Source of the DNA: Frankiaceae bacterium
Lineage (GTDB): Bacteria; Actinomycetota; Actinomycetes; Mycobacteriales; SCTD01
NCBI GenBank assembly: GCA_016650445.1
Contig: JAENVS010000006.1
Span: forward strand, 124,001 to 188,000
Length of the DNA stretch: 64,000 bases
Direction of reading: 5' to 3'
Shown: positions 3,435 to 64,000 of the stretch, one piece after another
Numbering within the stretch: position 1 is the stretch's first letter
Layout: each line of letters starts with the position of its first letter
Notes under the pieces: generated by a model
Told to the model about the DNA's origin: nothing
Database searches by the model: none
The model's input: only the letters and a program-made list of their open reading frames with translations
Position numbers and translations under genes: made by a program

Positions 3435-5726
3435 CTAGCGCGGCTGGACTCGGGTCGACCCCGTGCCCTTGGTGAACGGGGTGAAGTCGACAGGGAAGAT
3501 GATCGGGAAGCGGCGGGGCTTGGTGCCGGTCGCACGGGCGTAGGCGTTGGCAACGGCACCGACGGCCGACGGCAGGCCGAGCTCGCCGGCGCCGCCCGGT
3601 TCACCCGTCGTGGCCGGCATGATGTGGATCTTGACCTCCCGCGGTGCGTCCTTCTGCCTGGCGAAGTGGAACTGCGAGTAGCTGCCCTCGAGGGCGAGTC
3701 CCTTGTCGATGTGCAGACCGGCGCGAAGCGTCGTGGAGATGGCGTCGGTGAGTCCGCCGAGGAGCTGCGACTCCAGTCCGCGGGGGTTGATCGGTAGGCC
3801 GTAGTCACCGACGATCGCGGCCTTCGTCACCCGCGGCTTCTTCGGGTCGCGCGCGTCGATCTCGACCAGGCACGCCGTACAGGACTTGTACTCCGCGTGG
3901 AAGCCGAATCCCTGCGCGAAGCCGCTCGGCAGCTTCGTGCCCCAGGCGCCCAGCTCACCGCACTTCTTGATGACCGCGGCGTAGCGCGGGTCCTTGGCGT
4001 ACTCGATCCGGAAGGCGACCGGGTCCTTGCCGAGGGCCTTCGCGATCTCGTCGACGATGATCTCCTCGGCACCGCGCGTGTTGGCGGAGTAGACCGACCG
4101 GAAGCTGCCGGTGTGCATCGGCAGGTTGGCCTCGTTGAGCATCTGCGTCGTGGGCCCGAAGTTGTACGGCGACTTGATGGTGCTGCCGAACACCGACTGC
4201 GAGAACGTCGCCGCGCCACCCGCGGAGATCGGGATCAGCGCCGGGTCACCGAACGCCGCCCCGTTGGCCGTCATGATCTCGCCGAGCCCGTGCCGGAAGT
4301 CGGTCTCGACGCTGGCGACGTGGTGCTCGAACCGCACGACGTCGCCGCCGGCCAGGGTCGCGCGCACGAGGTGGTGGCTCGCCGCCCGGGCCCGGCCGTG
4401 TCGCATGTCGTCGACCCGCGTCCACATCAGCTTGACCGGCTTGCCGACAGCCTTGGAGATGCGCGCCGCCTCGAGGGCACCGTCGAAGAACAGCCGGCGC
4501 CCGAACGAGCCGCCGCCCTGCGTCACGACCGCTGTCACGGACCCGCGCGGCAGGCCGAGGTCGTCCTCGATGAACTGCGCGGCGACGATCGGGGACTTCA
4601 TCCCGGCCCACACGGTGCCGCCGGTGGCCTTGATGTCGGCGATGGCGGTGTTGGTCTCCATCGGGGCGTGGTTGACGAAGGCGAAGTCGAACTCGCCCTC
4701 CACCGCGTCGCCCAACGCCGGCCCGAGCGGTGCGTTCACCGCCTTGAGCGTGTCCAGGATGCTGGCGTTGTCCTCGGCGTCGACGGTGCCGGCGTTCCAG
4801 GTGACCTCGAGCGCCTCCTTGGCGTCGAGGGCCTGCCCGAACGTGTCGGCGAGCACCGCGACGCCGGTCGGGATGATCGCCAACGCGCGGACACCAGGCA
4901 TCTTCTTGATGGCGGCCTCGTTGACGATCGCCTTCACCGTGCCGTTGATCGTCGGTGGGCGGCGGACCATCGCGCGCAGCAGCCCCGGAACCGGCTCCAG
5001 GTCGTTGGTGTACTTCAGCTGCCCGGTGACCATCGCCCGCGCGTCCTTGCGGTTCTGCGGCCGACCGACCAGCGTGAACGCTGACGGGTCCTTCACCTCA
5101 ACGGCACCCATGGCGAGCGTCGGCGACGCGGCCGCCTGGGTGAGATCCCCGATGGGGATGCTGTGCCCCTCGCCGACGACCAGCCCGGCGCGCAGCTGAA
5201 GACGGCTTATCGGTACGCCGGTGCGCTGGGCGCCTGCAGCGAGCAGGCGTGCCTTCGTCGCCGCGGCGGCGGTGCGCGTCGGCGCGTAGACCGACCGCAT
5301 CGTGTTGGAGCCGCCGGTCAGCTGGTTGTACATGAGCTCCGGGCGACCCGGCGCGAGGGTGACCGTCACGTTGGCGAGCGGGACGTCCATCTCCTCGGCG
5401 ATCAGCATCGCGACGGCCGTCGTGATGCCCTGCCCGACCTCCTCGCGCGGTAGCGCGCAGTGCACCTTGCCGGCCTTGTCGACCTCGATGACGATCAGCT
5501 GATCCTCGGTGGGCTTGCCGGCGAGGATCAGGAAGTCGCCGAGATCGAAGTTTTCGGCCTGCTGCGGCTGGGTGGGGACGACAGCGTCCGCCACGCCGTC
5601 GAGCAGCCCGTACTGGACGGCGACCGCCAGGGTCGGCGCGGCCATGAGGTAGGTGAGGAACCGCCGGCGGCTGGTCCCTGCGGCGTCGGTGCCGGACGTG
5701 TCGTCGTACCCCTGCACGTCAGTCAC
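3435..5726 (-). CDS. Molybdopterin-binding large subunit (isoquinoline 1-oxidoreductase beta / aldehyde oxidase-like), Tat-exported
   Basis: A 763-residue molybdenum hydroxylase catalytic subunit. The N-terminus has a twin-arginine signal (SRRRFLTYLMAAPTLAVA, about residues 19-36), so the folded complex is probably moved across the membrane. Family landmarks are the cofactor loop GGGSFGRRLF and a C-terminal GGAGELGLPSAVGAVANA, which holds the expected catalytic glutamate (GxGE). The IorB type oxidises N-heterocycles or aldehydes; the substrate here is not evident. The GTG start at 5726 has a GGGAG ribosome site about 7 nt upstream. It is first gene of the operon with the 2Fe-2S subunit, XdhC and the MobA-like protein. 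Confidence 0.9.
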   Translation of the reverse strand: MTDVQGYDDTSGTDAAGTSRRRFLTYLMAAPTLAVAVQYGLLDGVADAVVPTQPQQAENFDLGDFLILAGKPTEDQLIVIEVDKAGKVHCALPREEVGQGITTAVAMLIAEEMDVPLANVTVTLAPGRPELMYNQLTGGSNTMRSVYAPTRTAAAATKARLLAAGAQRTGVPISRLQLRAGLVVGEGHSIPIGDLTQAAASPTLAMGAVEVKDPSAFTLVGRPQNRKDARAMVTGQLKYTNDLEPVPGLLRAMVRRPPTINGTVKAIVNEAAIKKMPGVRALAIIPTGVAVLADTFGQALDAKEALEVTWNAGTVDAEDNASILDTLKAVNAPLGPALGDAVEGEFDFAFVNHAPMETNTAIADIKATGGTVWAGMKSPIVAAQFIEDDLGLPRGSVTAVVTQGGGSFGRRLFFDGALEAARISKAVGKPVKLMWTRVDDMRHGRARAASHHLVRATLAGGDVVRFEHHVASVETDFRHGLGEIMTANGAAFGDPALIPISAGGAATFSQSVFGSTIKSPYNFGPTTQMLNEANLPMHTGSFRSVYSANTRGAEEIIVDEIAKALGKDPVAFRIEYAKDPRYAAVIKKCGELGAWGTKLPSGFAQGFGFHAEYKSCTACLVEIDARDPKKPRVTKAAIVGDYGLPINPRGLESQLLGGLTDAISTTLRAGLHIDKGLALEGSYSQFHFARQKDAPREVKIHIMPATTGEPGGAGELGLPSAVGAVANAYARATGTKPRRFPIIFPVDFTPFTKGTGSTRVQPR

Positions 5727-37203: not shown

Positions 37204-38874
37204 ATGGTGAGAAGGGAGGGCGCGGCAAGGCTGTCGGCTGCTGCCGTCACGTTCGCCGTCGCCCTCTGCCTGGCCGCGAGCCCGGCCCGTGCCGAGGACC
37301 CACCGAGTCCCGCACCCACCCCCGCGCCCACCCCCGCACCCACCCCCGCACCCAGCGCCGCAGCCATGGGCGCGGGCGGTGCCTGGTCCTACTTCTCGGA
37401 CCCCCGCGCCGTGCAGGTCACGACACCTCGCACGCTGCTCTACTCCGGCTGGGTCACGAGCCTCGGCCACATCGTCGCGGGCGTCTACGACCCGGCGACG
37501 AAGCGGGTGTCGTCCATGGTCCTGCAGAACCGGTTGCAGAACGACGACCACGACAACCCGTCGGTGCTCGCGCTTCCCGACGGCCGCGTGACCTACTTCT
37601 GGAACGCGCACAACGGGGCGTTCATGTACTACCGGACGACGACGCGGCCCGGCGACATCCACTCGTTCGGACCGCTGAACACCTTGCAGGTGAAGCCCTC
37701 GGGCGACCGCCTGTTCACCTACAGCAACCCGATGCTGCTGCCGGCCGAGGGCAACCGCCTGTACCTGTTCTGGCGCTCCCAGTTCACCCACCAGGCCTTC
37801 GCGACGTCCGACGACCTCGGCAAGACGTGGTCCCCGGCGCGGATCCTGCTCGAAGAGCCGAACCAGCGGCCCTACGTGAAGTACGCCGCGAGCAACGACA
37901 CGATCGCGATGGCCTTCACCCGCAGCCACCCGGACGAGAGCTCGACCGGGATCTACTACATGTCCTACTGGAACAACGCGTTCTTCCGCGCCGACGGCAC
38001 AGCGATCGGCGGCATGGAGGAGCTGCCCTTCGCGCCCGCGCAGACCGAGCTCGTCGTCGACCCGGCCGTCCTCGGCGGCTCCGCGTGGGTGCTGGACGTC
38101 GCGCTCGGCGCCGATGGCAACCCCGTCATCGCGTACGTCGCCACCGGCGAGACGCACCGCTACCACTACGTCCGCTTCGACGGGATGCAGTGGCACGACA
38201 CCGTGCTGACCGACGCAGGTCCGGGCATCGCCGGCGACGCACGGGAGCCGTCGTACTCCGGCGGCATGGCACTGGACCACTCCGACCCGACGACGGCGTA
38301 CCTCTCCCGCCGGGTCGGCGACCACAACGTCGTCGAGCGGTGGCGGACCACCGACGGCGGCGCGACGTTCACGTCGGAGGCGATCGCGCAGGACACCTCG
38401 GTCGACAACCTGCGGCCGGTCGTCCCGCTCGGCCTCGGACCCGACGACCCGGTGCGCACGCTCTGGATGTCGGGGACCTACCGATACTTCACCGACTTCG
38501 CGACGTCGATCGTCGGGCCGCCGGCGGTCCCTCCGACGCCCGAGAGCACCTTCGTGCGGATCAGCTTCCCGACGCCGCGGGTGGTCGAGCGGCAGGCGGC
38601 CAGGCTGAGCGCCAGGTTCTTCGCGGTCGACTCAGGTCACCCGGCAGTCGATATCGAGGTCACGCTGTTCGAGCGGCGCGCAGGCGGGCTCGTGTGGTCG
38701 CGCGCAGGGACCGCACACACCGACACGACCGGTCTGGTGTCGTTCCGCCACACGATCGCGCGCGACACCGAGCTGATGATCGACTGGCCCGGCGACGAGC
38801 GCTGGACGCCGGTTCAGACCTCGCCGGTGCGCGTCACCGCGCTGGCGCCGGCCTTCAACCCGTTGAGGCGCTGA
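37204..38874 (+). CDS. Secreted BNR_4-type propeller protein (possible polysaccharide lyase or glycan-binding)
   Basis: A 556-residue exported protein with signal peptide (FAVALCLAASPARA), a PAPTPAPTPAPTPAP linker, then a seven-bladed-propeller-like region with SYFSDPRAV, NDDHDNPSVLALPDGRVTYF, TYSNPM and RPYVKYAAS. These match the BNR repeat-containing family that includes ulvan-type lyases (PL24/PL25). A beta-sandwich of about 100 residues closes the C-terminus. Next to a divergent GH88 enzyme, a lyase producing unsaturated uronates is a reasonable role, but catalytic residues were not verified. The start may be the GTG at 37207 if the mRNA is leaderless. Confidence 0.78.
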   Translation: MVRREGAARLSAAAVTFAVALCLAASPARAEDPPSPAPTPAPTPAPTPAPSAAAMGAGGAWSYFSDPRAVQVTTPRTLLYSGWVTSLGHIVAGVYDPATKRVSSMVLQNRLQNDDHDNPSVLALPDGRVTYFWNAHNGAFMYYRTTTRPGDIHSFGPLNTLQVKPSGDRLFTYSNPMLLPAEGNRLYLFWRSQFTHQAFATSDDLGKTWSPARILLEEPNQRPYVKYAASNDTIAMAFTRSHPDESSTGIYYMSYWNNAFFRADGTAIGGMEELPFAPAQTELVVDPAVLGGSAWVLDVALGADGNPVIAYVATGETHRYHYVRFDGMQWHDTVLTDAGPGIAGDAREPSYSGGMALDHSDPTTAYLSRRVGDHNVVERWRTTDGGATFTSEAIAQDTSVDNLRPVVPLGLGPDDPVRTLWMSGTYRYFTDFATSIVGPPAVPPTPESTFVRISFPTPRVVERQAARLSARFFAVDSGHPAVDIEVTLFERRAGGLVWSRAGTAHTDTTGLVSFRHTIARDTELMIDWPGDERWTPVQTSPVRVTALAPAFNPLRR

Positions 38875-61518: not shown

Positions 61519-62481
61519 TCAGCCGCGTCGCCGTACGGCGGGGTCGACGCCGTTGACGACGTCGATGACCGGCTCGCCGTCGAAGACCCTGCGCAGGTTC
61601 GCGGCGGTCTGCCCAACGATGCGCATCGCGGCCTGGCCGGTCGAGCCGGCCATGTGCGGCGAGAGCAGCACCGGTAGCTCGCGCAGCGGCGAGTCGGCCG
61701 GCAGCGGCTCCACGGCGAAGACGTCCAGAGCCGCGCCGGCGAGCCGGCCCTCCCGCAACGCGGCGACGAGGGCGTCCTCGTCGACCAGGCCGCCCCGACC
61801 TCCGTTGACGAGCAGCGCGCCGGGTTTGAGCGACGCCAGTCGGCGGGCGTCGACGAGGTGCCGGGTCTGCGGGCCGAGGGCGATGACGAGCACGATGACG
61901 TCACTGGTCGCCATCAGGTCGTCGAGCTCGACGTAGTCGGCAGCCGCGTCGTCGTGCCGGCTACGCGACCAGTACTGCACCCGGCACTCGAACGCCCCGA
62001 ACATCCGGGCCACGGCCGTGCCGATGCCGCCCATGCCGACGATGCCGACGGTGCTGCCGGCGAGCTCACGGCCGCCGACGGTGGTCTGCGGCCACTCACC
62101 GCGACGAACGGCGGCGTCGGCCTCAACCGTCTTGCGCATCAGCGCGAAGGTCGCCGACACGCACCACTCCGCGACGCTGATCGTGTTGGCGCCTGCGCAG
62201 TTGGCGACCGGAACGCCCGCCTCGGTGCACCGGTCGACGGCGATGGTGTCGACCCCGACGCTCGGCATCTGCACGAGCGACACCCGCGGACCGGGGTCGT
62301 TGAGGCGAAGGCTGTGCGTCCAGTCGCCGATGACGACGTCCACGCCGGGTACGAGCGCGTCGACGGCTGCCTGGGTGCGCTCGTCGGGGACGACGAACTC
62401 GGCGCGGTCGTCGGCGAACAGTCCCTCGATGACGGCCTTGGGCAGCGGCGGCAGGGCGAGCACCCGCCAGCGGTCGGTCAC
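61519..62481 (-). CDS. D-isomer-specific 2-hydroxyacid dehydrogenase
   Basis: A 320-residue NAD-dependent dehydrogenase with the cofactor motif VGIVGMGGIGTAVARMFG, catalytic Arg in NGGRGGLVDEDAL, Glu in FAVEPLP and His in LSPHMAGST. It reduces a 2-oxoacid to a D-2-hydroxyacid or the reverse; the substrate is not evident (the glyoxylate/hydroxypyruvate or D-lactate groups are options). The GTG at 62481 overlaps the rhodanese stop as GTGA. Confidence 0.88.
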   Translation of the reverse strand: MTDRWRVLALPPLPKAVIEGLFADDRAEFVVPDERTQAAVDALVPGVDVVIGDWTHSLRLNDPGPRVSLVQMPSVGVDTIAVDRCTEAGVPVANCAGANTISVAEWCVSATFALMRKTVEADAAVRRGEWPQTTVGGRELAGSTVGIVGMGGIGTAVARMFGAFECRVQYWSRSRHDDAAADYVELDDLMATSDVIVLVIALGPQTRHLVDARRLASLKPGALLVNGGRGGLVDEDALVAALREGRLAGAALDVFAVEPLPADSPLRELPVLLSPHMAGSTGQAAMRIVGQTAANLRRVFDGEPVIDVVNGVDPAVRRRG

Positions 62482-62765
62482 GCGGTCCGTCCCTCGACGG
62501 GTAGCCCGGCTGTCGCCCAGGCATCCATCCCGCCCTCGACGTTGTGCGCGTCGTACCCCTGTGCACGCAGCCAGTGCGTGACCTGCGCGGAGCGCGCCCC
62601 GACGTGACAGATGACAGCGATGGGCTGGCCGTGGGGCAGCTCGTCCAGCCGGGCGGGGACGTCGTGCATCGGGATGTGCACCGCCGCTGGCGCGTGGCCG
62701 GTCATCCACTCGTGGTCCTCCCGCACGTCGAGGAGGAACGCGTTGTCGACGTGGGTGGGATGCAC
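62478..62765 (-). CDS. Rhodanese-like domain protein
   Basis: A 95-residue single rhodanese domain with FLLDVREDHEWMTGHAPAAV, HIPMHDVPARLDELP, the active loop CHVGARS and EGGMDAWATAGLPV. The catalytic cysteine is present, so sulfur transfer is possible. The GTG at 62765 has AATGCT 6 nt upstream. The next gene (D-2-hydroxyacid dehydrogenase) overlaps by GTGA. Any longer upstream reading enters the hairpin repeat and was rejected. Confidence 0.85.
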   Translation of the reverse strand: MHPTHVDNAFLLDVREDHEWMTGHAPAAVHIPMHDVPARLDELPHGQPIAVICHVGARSAQVTHWLRAQGYDAHNVEGGMDAWATAGLPVEGRTA

Positions 62766-62847
62766 CGCACGAGCATTCCATCCGGGCGTGGGGCACCTTC
62801 GAACCCACCCCGCCTCCAGCCGCAACCCAACCCGCAGGGACGGAAGT

Positions 62848-63022
62848 GCGTTCAGAAATTGATCCGTACGGCGAGGCGCGGCCGGCGTCGTACGGATCAT
62901 CTTCGGCAGGGCCACGCCGAGGCGTTCAGAAATTGATCCGTACGGCGAGGCGCGGCCGGCGTCGTACGGATCATCTTCGGCAGGGCCACGCCGAGGCGTT
63001 CGGAACATGATCCGTACGGCTA
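62848..63022. repeat. Tandem 74-bp repeat (two identical copies plus one partial) carrying a strong hairpin
   Basis: Units at 62848-62921 and 62922-62995 are identical over 74 bp; a diverged third copy starts at 62996. Each full unit has an 11-bp inverted repeat (TGATCCGTACG and its complement, 62860-62870 with 62889-62899, 18-nt loop, and again 74 bp on). The partial copy keeps one arm (63009-63018). The array fills most of the 276-bp gap between the rhodanese and Fpg/Nei genes. It may terminate or buffer transcription, or be an interspersed repeat. Confidence 0.85.
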
Positions 63023-63041
63023 AGCGTGGGGTCGCGGCGGG

Positions 63042-63902
63042 CTACTTGAGGAGGCGGGACAGGCGGCGGTCGGCGAGCGGCTTGCCGTCGGTCTGGCAGG
63101 TCGGGCAGTACTGCAGCGACGTGTCCGCGAAGGACACCTCGCGGATTGTGTCGCCGCAGCGCGGACACGGCAAACCGGTGCGCGCGTGCACGTTCAGGCC
63201 GACCTTCTTCTCCGCCTTGAGCTCCTTGGCCGCAAGGCCCTCCGCCCGCTGAACAGCGCCGCGCAAGGTGTCGACGATCGCGGCGTGCAGTCGCTCGACG
63301 TCCTCCGGCGACAGGTTGCGGGCCGGCTTGAACGGCGAGAGCCCCACCTCCCACAGCACCTCGTCGCTGTACGCGTTTCCGAGCCCGGCGATCAGTGACT
63401 GGTTCGTGAGGACGCCTTTGACCTGACCCCGCTCCTCCGCGAGGAGCCCTGCCAGCGCCTCCGACGTGAAGCCCTCGGACAGCGGGTCGACGCCGAGCCG
63501 GGCGACACCGGGCACGAGCGCCGGGTCCTTCACCACGTAGACCGCCAGCCGCTTGCGGGTGCCGGCCTCGGTGAGGTCGAAGCCGGTCTCGTCATCGAGG
63601 TGCACGCGCAACCCGAGCGGACCCTTGCCCGGCCGGGGCGGCACGGGCGACAGCTTGTCGCTCCAGCGCAACCAGCCGGCGCGCGCGAGGTGGATGACGA
63701 GATGCAGCCCGGACACGTCGAGGTCGAGGAACTTGCCGTGCCGGCTCACGCCGGTGATCTCCAGGCCGGCGAGCGCCGTCACCGGGGGGTCGTAGGTCTT
63801 GAGCACCTCGATCCCCGCGACGTCGATGCGCGCGACCGTCCGGCCCACGGCGTGCTCACGCAGGAACGCCACCAGGGCCTCGACCTCGGGCAGCTCAGGC
63901 AC
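63042..63902 (-). CDS. Fpg/Nei family DNA glycosylase
   Basis: A 286-residue base-excision repair glycosylase/AP lyase. After the start GTG it reads PELPEVEALVAFL, giving the catalytic N-terminal Pro and Glu; the conserved region GLGNAYSDEVLW (helix-two-turns-helix) and a C-terminal zinc finger (CPRCGDTIREVSFADTSLQY then CPTCQ) follow. GTG 63902 is chosen because the catalytic proline must be residue 2; the longer reading is excluded by this. CAGACT 6 nt upstream suggests a leaderless mRNA. It removes oxidised bases. Confidence 0.92.
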   Translation of the reverse strand: MPELPEVEALVAFLREHAVGRTVARIDVAGIEVLKTYDPPVTALAGLEITGVSRHGKFLDLDVSGLHLVIHLARAGWLRWSDKLSPVPPRPGKGPLGLRVHLDDETGFDLTEAGTRKRLAVYVVKDPALVPGVARLGVDPLSEGFTSEALAGLLAEERGQVKGVLTNQSLIAGLGNAYSDEVLWEVGLSPFKPARNLSPEDVERLHAAIVDTLRGAVQRAEGLAAKELKAEKKVGLNVHARTGLPCPRCGDTIREVSFADTSLQYCPTCQTDGKPLADRRLSRLLK

Positions 63903-63957
63903 GGCACCAGTCTGAGGCCTTCGCCCTGTTAGCGTCGAGCGGACGAGAAGGAGCCGC

Positions 63958-64000
63958 ATGGGCCGCGTGCGCAAGGGCGAGCGCGAGTGGCTCGCGGCCT
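63958..64000 (+). CDS. Start of an unidentified gene (runs off the window)
   Basis: Fourteen codons are visible: MGRVRKGEREWLAA. A GAAGGAG ribosome site lies about 6 nt before the ATG and TAGCGT (63930-63935) about 22 nt upstream, so a real gene start divergent from fpg/nei is likely. Too little is present to name the product. Confidence 0.5.
   Translation, partial: MGRVRKGEREWLAA

Follow-up and report, generated by a model that had tools for sequence, protein, structure and literature searches.

What is a perfectly repeated, hairpin-forming stretch of DNA doing between two genes, and does it stand alone? This is the question raised near the right-hand end of the window, by which we mean the whole stretch of DNA analysed (64,000 nucleotides), where the initial annotation had described a perfect 74-bp tandem duplication whose hairpin resembled REP-like elements or strong terminators. 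REP-like palindromes are common in bacteria, and to our knowledge the RAYTs, which are HUH enzymes, are the sole dedicated enzyme class known for REPs. In this article, we argue that the array is probably a local cluster of REP-like, non-autonomous palindromes, whose cognate enzyme would be an AbiEi-Vsr/DUF559 protein encoded elsewhere between the same palindromes. The features on which the discussion turns are the following, in window positions:

62478..62765, minus strand: rhodanese-like gene, the downstream neighbour of the array (open reading frame; start and name assigned by eye)
62848..62995, no strand assigned: two perfect 74-bp copies in tandem, taking in the orphan arm, unit 1 and, of unit 2, the left part
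62848..62870, plus strand: orphan right arm of a palindrome unit, without a left arm (register from single-copy units)
62889..62944 (= G000:C6:186889-186944), no strand assigned: full palindrome unit 1, C15-type subfamily (covariance model R1, E 4.2e-20, the unit being part of the R1 training set)
62963..63018 (= G000:C6:186963-187018), no strand assigned: full palindrome unit 2, C15-type subfamily (covariance model R1, E 1.8e-19, the unit being part of the R1 training set)
63042..63902, minus strand: Fpg/Nei-type DNA glycosylase gene (open reading frame; start placed by eye at VPELPEVEAL)

The duplication itself is as it had been described: 62848-62921 and 62922-62995 agree at all 74 nt (100%), a partial third copy follows at 62996-63029 with an 82% match to the first 34 nt of the 74-nt unit, and TRF, run on the window, places the array (period 74, 2.3 copies, score 325) at the top of its nine rows. 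The annotated setting is also correct, with the rhodanese-like gene 82 bp from the array, the Fpg/Nei stop codon 23 bp from palindrome unit 2 and both genes on the minus strand, and a recent duplication was the right call for the two identical units. The arm TGATCCGTACG occurs in five exact copies with alternating strands (62860+, 62889-, 62934+, 62963-, 63008+); when up to one mismatch is allowed, the window holds six matches versus 0.78 expected, a number that 0 of 100 shuffles attain, and the strands of the array form much more stable folds than shuffles do (z -3.0 to -4.9). The 29-nt-spaced form of the annotated hairpin is seen only between adjoining units of tandem arrays, and single-copy members elsewhere in the genome have arms that face each other (minus, then plus) at 45 nt from start to start. 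Since these single-copy members give the register, the window is best described as one orphan right arm plus two full palindromes, and the earlier description of a third copy that had lost its second arm depends on the register chosen. The family unit is a palindrome of ~56 bp with arms of about 16-18 bp and a centre of ~20 nt, and its consensus reads CGTACGGATCAACTTCCG, about 20 nt, then GAAGTTGATCCGTACG. A known RNA family was considered for the array and rejected, the sole match being a sub-threshold hya RNA outside it. Elsewhere in the window, at 37309-37366, a 12-bp tandem repeat, CCCGCACCCACC, runs to 4.8 copies.

The palindromes are dispersed through the window's own genome (G000; 3.44 Mb in 50 contigs, about 92% complete), where exact arms number 28 (13+15) versus 0 for a reversed-letter control, and where R1, a covariance model whose 16 training units (alignment A1) all come from this genome, finds 26 units at 18 places, the weakest being C17:108345 with an E of 0.08. 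A single genomic occurrence, which would have spoken for a simple local duplication, is contradicted by these counts, and they bear out the REP-like character that had been proposed, as does the absence of the array from a same-genus relative; the earlier interpretation as a whole is partly supported. The palindrome sequence is essentially private to this species: the count extended to relatives gives matches at E<=1e-4 in 8 of the 150 genomes searched (its own included), the best outside G000 being 3e-7, in G003. Fpg/Nei orthologues are present in 22 of 24 family genomes; in G002, of the same genus and with the same Fpg-rhodanese order, the array is absent and there is no arm at <=2 mismatches, and in G001 and G003 different DNA follows Fpg, with no close arm there. 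The gap between Fpg and the rhodanese-like gene in G003 (L265) is filled by other DNA, and this junction thus varies within the genus.

A motif rule set by hand divides 25 of the units into 17 of C15 type, three of which flank the gene on contig C15 described below, and eight of C17 type, C17:108345 being left out of this subfamily count as its model match is incomplete. Contigs C18 and C24 share a 56-bp C17-type palindrome without a single difference, and C27 has a third copy, which points to a recent spread of copies; the alignable unit in the three is about 120-128 bp, and diverged flanks hide the junctions, so no target-site duplication is readable. Arm covariation over all 25 units is matched by 1 of 10,000 shuffles, but this overall signal is due to the two subfamilies and is absent inside each, where 6335 and 4161 of 10,000 shuffles reach the observed value; the latter result counts against our reading, and covariation was set aside as proof of structure. 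One two-unit array (L034, G000:C11:112022-112151) adjoins a VapBC-type toxin-antitoxin-like pair, with a PIN-domain-like open reading frame recognized by eye.

Which enzyme might serve such a family? Two genes of this genome lie between its palindromes. The C15 gene (3735-4754) is flanked on both sides, by palindromes at 3665-3720 and 4809-4939, of which a single one lies 14 bp beyond the end of the sequence coding for the matched protein and two lie upstream; the C17 gene (107236-108231) similarly lies between a palindrome at 107125-107180 and another at 108345-108394, this right flank being the covariance model match of E 0.08, which was found a second time. The two proteins are 55% identical, and the two gene paralogues go with the two palindrome subfamilies. 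At the C15 locus, the gene is missing from the other genus members G001, G002 and G003, and its site is empty in G003 (where diverged flanks hide the junctions), so it is a lineage-specific gain; when orthologous loci were screened automatically for empty sites, only unrelated indels appeared among the matches listed. The C17 locus of G003 carries an orthologue between another pair of palindromes, and that palindrome type is not expanded in G003, with two flanking copies and short partial matches only, which counts against our reading: not every such gene is accompanied by an expanded palindrome family. A third, distant homologue (33% identity; C22:137000-137737, L067) has another palindrome, GATCTACGTC..GACGTAGATC, on both sides.

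Other partners were considered and rejected. The RAYT domain PF01797 (Y1_Tnp) has 0 matches in G000, which at ~92% completeness may be missing a RAYT, versus matches in 5 of 14 control genomes, and the palindrome-flanked genes match AbiEi_4 instead. PF04480 genes number two in G000 and neither belongs to the palindrome-flanked pair, one (L029) being without a matched pair of palindromes and the other (L030) having a weak 3' hairpin.

The protein of ~340 aa combines an AbiEi-like winged helix at its N-terminus with a Vsr/DUF559-type PD-(D/E)xK nuclease at its C-terminus. AbiEi_4 (PF13338) is found at the N-terminus in 24 of 26 aligned homologues, the PADLOC AbiEi models match the protein, and one homologue bears the NCBI name of a type IV toxin-antitoxin AbiEi-family antitoxin domain protein. 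In the C-terminus, E205, D238, E249-x-D251-G and Y256 are invariant and K255 is present in at least 90% of the sequences (alignment A2, from which L065-L067, L074, L077, L083, L086 and L092 were left out). In the AlphaFold model (pLDDT 91), residues 1-197 match AbiEi 6y8q (Z 10.0) and residues about 200-316 match I-Bth0305I (3r3p, Z 10.8), NGO0050 (3hrl, Z 10.3) and Vsr (1cw0, Z 9.2), structure matches having also been searched with Foldseek; mitoribosomal proteins among them were taken as a shared fold only. Pfam DUF559 itself matches just 2 of 26 members, and hhalign of A2 against the DUF559 profile A4 gives a probability of 90 and an E of 1.7e-6. With both the PD-(D/E)xK residues and the modelled fold in place, the protein is predicted to be a member of the Vsr/DUF559 nuclease superfamily, and its N-terminus is likewise predicted to be an AbiEi winged helix. 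The likeness to the Vsr-like homing endonuclease I-Bth0305I and the DUF559 protein NGO0050 is one of nuclease fold only, and the present protein differs in its AbiEi-like N-terminus and its place between palindromes; similarly, it shares the N-terminal fold with the AbiE type IV toxin-antitoxin systems but differs in its fused C-terminal nuclease, and no AbiEii-like partner was recognized beside the C15 and C17 genes when their neighbours were read by eye.

Furthermore, the arrangement recurs across Actinobacteria. A homologue at E<=1e-20 is present in 62 of 150 genomes (its own included), and of 34 fetched loci, 22 have a 5' flank whose match to the 3' flank of the same gene exceeds the 99th percentile of cross pairs. 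Named genomes, when scanned, yielded 80 loci, mostly from Blastococcus, Geodermatophilus and Modestobacter, with single loci in Jatrophihabitans, Pseudonocardia, Nocardioides, Rhodococcus, Frigoribacterium and others; plasmids are poor in AbiEi-Vsr genes (3 of 72,556 records). Two of the 80 (L153 and L207) were dropped for a distant stop, and matched flanks rise above shuffles in 67 of the 78 usable loci versus 2 of 27 neighbouring genes (Mann-Whitney p 6e-12), counts that, like the 22 of 34, are not independent because several genes entered them twice (e.g., L091 = L131), and that do not represent 78 independent events because many of the loci are orthologous (40 share one locus). The remaining 11 of 78 are not above shuffles, which counts against our reading.

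Where palindromes were detected, there are mostly about 50-130 bp between the upstream copy and the start codon and no more than about 60 bp between the stop codon and the downstream copy, and their sequence differs from gene to gene while being matched within each pair. The 40 orthologous loci at one chromosomal place have a median 5'/3' match of their own of 56.5, and between species with less than 70% protein identity their 5'-5' and 3'-3' matches do not leave the background (24-27), higher values being limited to close pairs; the high match within a gene's own pair and the background match between species suggest, from sequence comparison, that both palindromes of one gene may change together. 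Against joint change, only 17 of these 40 do better than their closest orthologue, and the palindromes of another orthologue group, of nine loci, are conserved between species, which counts against it as well.

Solo palindromes accompany the gene in other genomes too. One arm pattern, counted in 10 genomes, gave 14 to 109 sites versus 0 to 3 control sites each, in 10 of 10 genomes. Eight of these have a gene of the tested palindrome type (63, 18, 47, 109, 49, 88, 39 and 57 sites), and the other two, selected for a known gene with a different type of palindrome, nevertheless contain 20 and 14 sites of the tested type, which counts against our reading. In a closed genome, the palindrome of its own gene is found at 13 places with E<=1e-3, two of which flank the gene. 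Among 30 solo loci, some of which are the same site, 28 are intergenic and 27 palindromic, many lie <=100 bp from a stop codon, and the genes on either side of them are often convergent or co-directional. Direct arrays of arms that repeat every 20 bp were seen as well (G154:C1:438969-439023, G154:C1:946077-946191 and G156:C39:19854-19948), from which it appears that the arm itself can expand in tandem.

How close does this come to the systems already described? RAYTs are IS200/IS605-type Y1 HUH transposases associated with GTAG-tagged REPs and REPINs (PMC2817692, PMC3116915, PMC3733652), and their genes are reported to be always flanked by two REPs, to coevolve with them and to correlate with REP abundance (PMC2817692). 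The present system is alike in having an enzyme gene between two palindrome copies, numerous solo copies in intergenic DNA near gene ends, palindromes that are lineage-specific and vary in type with the enzyme gene, and doublets and arrays. It differs in pairing a Vsr/DUF559 PD-(D/E)xK domain with an AbiEi winged helix instead of an HUH domain, in its longer arms (about 16-18 bp) and ~20-nt centre, and in lacking a conserved GTAG foot, the consensus foot in the 16-unit alignment being CGTACGGATC (a few single units end in CTACGG). REPs usually number more than 100 per genome, and the 26 units in G000 fall below this. By analogy, the best reading is that of a functional counterpart of RAYT/REPIN served by a non-HUH nuclease, in which catalysis and mobilization would fall to the AbiEi-Vsr protein. 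The winged helix would recognize and bind its cognate palindrome, the Vsr-like domain would nick or cut it, either in duplex or as a hairpin extruded at the replication fork, and repair or replication would then copy the palindrome into new intergenic sites; tandem arrays like the one in the window could arise later, by slippage or repeated insertion. RAYTs are thought to copy REPINs in a comparable way.

The same observations could be read in other ways. Pfam describes AbiEi_4 as a transcriptional regulator and the upstream palindromes, about 50-130 bp before the start, would fit an operator, so that the protein could be an AbiEi-like autoregulator with the solo copies as its regulon and a nuclease domain that is degenerate or kept for defence; we consider this unlikely, since a matching palindrome also lies 3' of the stop codon in most loci, solo copies sit near 3' ends and between convergent genes, the catalytic residues are invariant, and in one group the palindrome has been replaced between orthologues of 50-70% identity. 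It is quite unlikely, in our estimation, that REP/MITE-like or terminator palindromes spread independently by another enzyme have simply gathered around these genes, with the array serving as an intergenic terminator or mRNA-stabilizing element. The stable hairpins and the intergenic sites near stop codons would suit such palindromes, but neighbouring genes lack matched flanks (apart from the 2 of 27 given above), the palindrome type follows the gene paralogue, and no Y1 transposase was found in G000. A search of 62400-64000 for a stem followed by a T run gave 0 terminator-like sites, and the strong terminator of the initial annotation is not supported, although an actinobacterial terminator without a U-tract could still be present. 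A plain local tandem duplication or an assembly artefact, for which one might cite the perfect identity of the two units in a 50-contig draft, is scarcely credible given units at 18 places over many contigs.

If dispersed palindromes and an AbiEi-Vsr gene do form one system, how far does the principle extend? We tentatively propose, as a possibility short of probable, that Vsr/DUF559-type nucleases make up a second, HUH-independent class of REP-associated mobilizing enzymes, represented in Actinobacteria by AbiEi fusions whose palindromes change fast and in Proteobacteria, Deinococcota and Cyanobacteria by bare DUF559 proteins accompanied by CTCCCC..GGGGAG palindromes, that both flanking palindromes of one gene change together, and that such enzymes account for many palindromic repeats without a known enzyme. 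Di Nocera et al. left the enzyme of the other REPs open (PMC3733652). No paper linking DUF559 or AbiEi to palindromic repeats was found by title and abstract start in the open-access PMC literature, and as far as that literature shows, a palindrome association with a non-HUH nuclease is undescribed. If true, the proposal would provide a testable role for widespread proteins usually annotated as type IV antitoxin domain or DUF559, explain lineage-specific repeat families of Actinobacteria, and offer small two-part bench systems consisting of one gene and one ~60-bp palindrome.

The extension beyond Actinobacteria widens the claim, with fewer and less controlled loci behind it. Bare DUF559 genes were reached via a plasmid collection with a consensus sequence (47 records; 27 loci fetched), and 17 of the 27 loci are flanked by CTCCCC..GGGGAG palindromes above shuffles versus 0 of 4 control genes; solo CTCCCC palindromes in two 50-kb stretches numbered 9 and 0 versus 6 and 2 for the control. 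The motif of the flanking palindromes, GGGGAGAG, resembles that of the TIRYT elements, in which a nuclease gene also lies between repeats, some self-complementary, that occur alone too; TIRYT terminal repeats are GGGGWSAS and the proteins are HUH transposases (PMC3733652), unlike the Vsr/DUF559-type proteins here. CGTC-tagged REPs, which "apparently lack a dedicated transposase", have 8-9 bp stems, 4-5 nt loops and a CCA tail and are described from five phyla without Actinobacteria (PMC3733652); the present palindromes are likewise dispersed without a RAYT, but their arms of about 16-18 bp and centre of about 20 nt, and the CTCCCC..GGGGAG of those beside DUF559, do not fit that definition, and we therefore make no claim to have found the CGTC REP enzyme. 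A CGTC motif as a mark of DUF559 loci was rejected, since a CGTCAT scan of 10 DUF559 loci and one AbiEi locus gave incidental matches only. The bare DUF559 genes and their palindromes sit inside operons as if inserted there: in Deinococcus (L109, L320, L325), the unit occupies different hpa operon junctions in three species, with the ox/hpaE junction split in one species and intact in another, and in Sphingomonas (L324, L329) it splits sufB-sufC and a transhydrogenase operon. Two Sphingomonas doublets share TTCA/TGAA cores with the DUF559 flanks at sufB-sufC.
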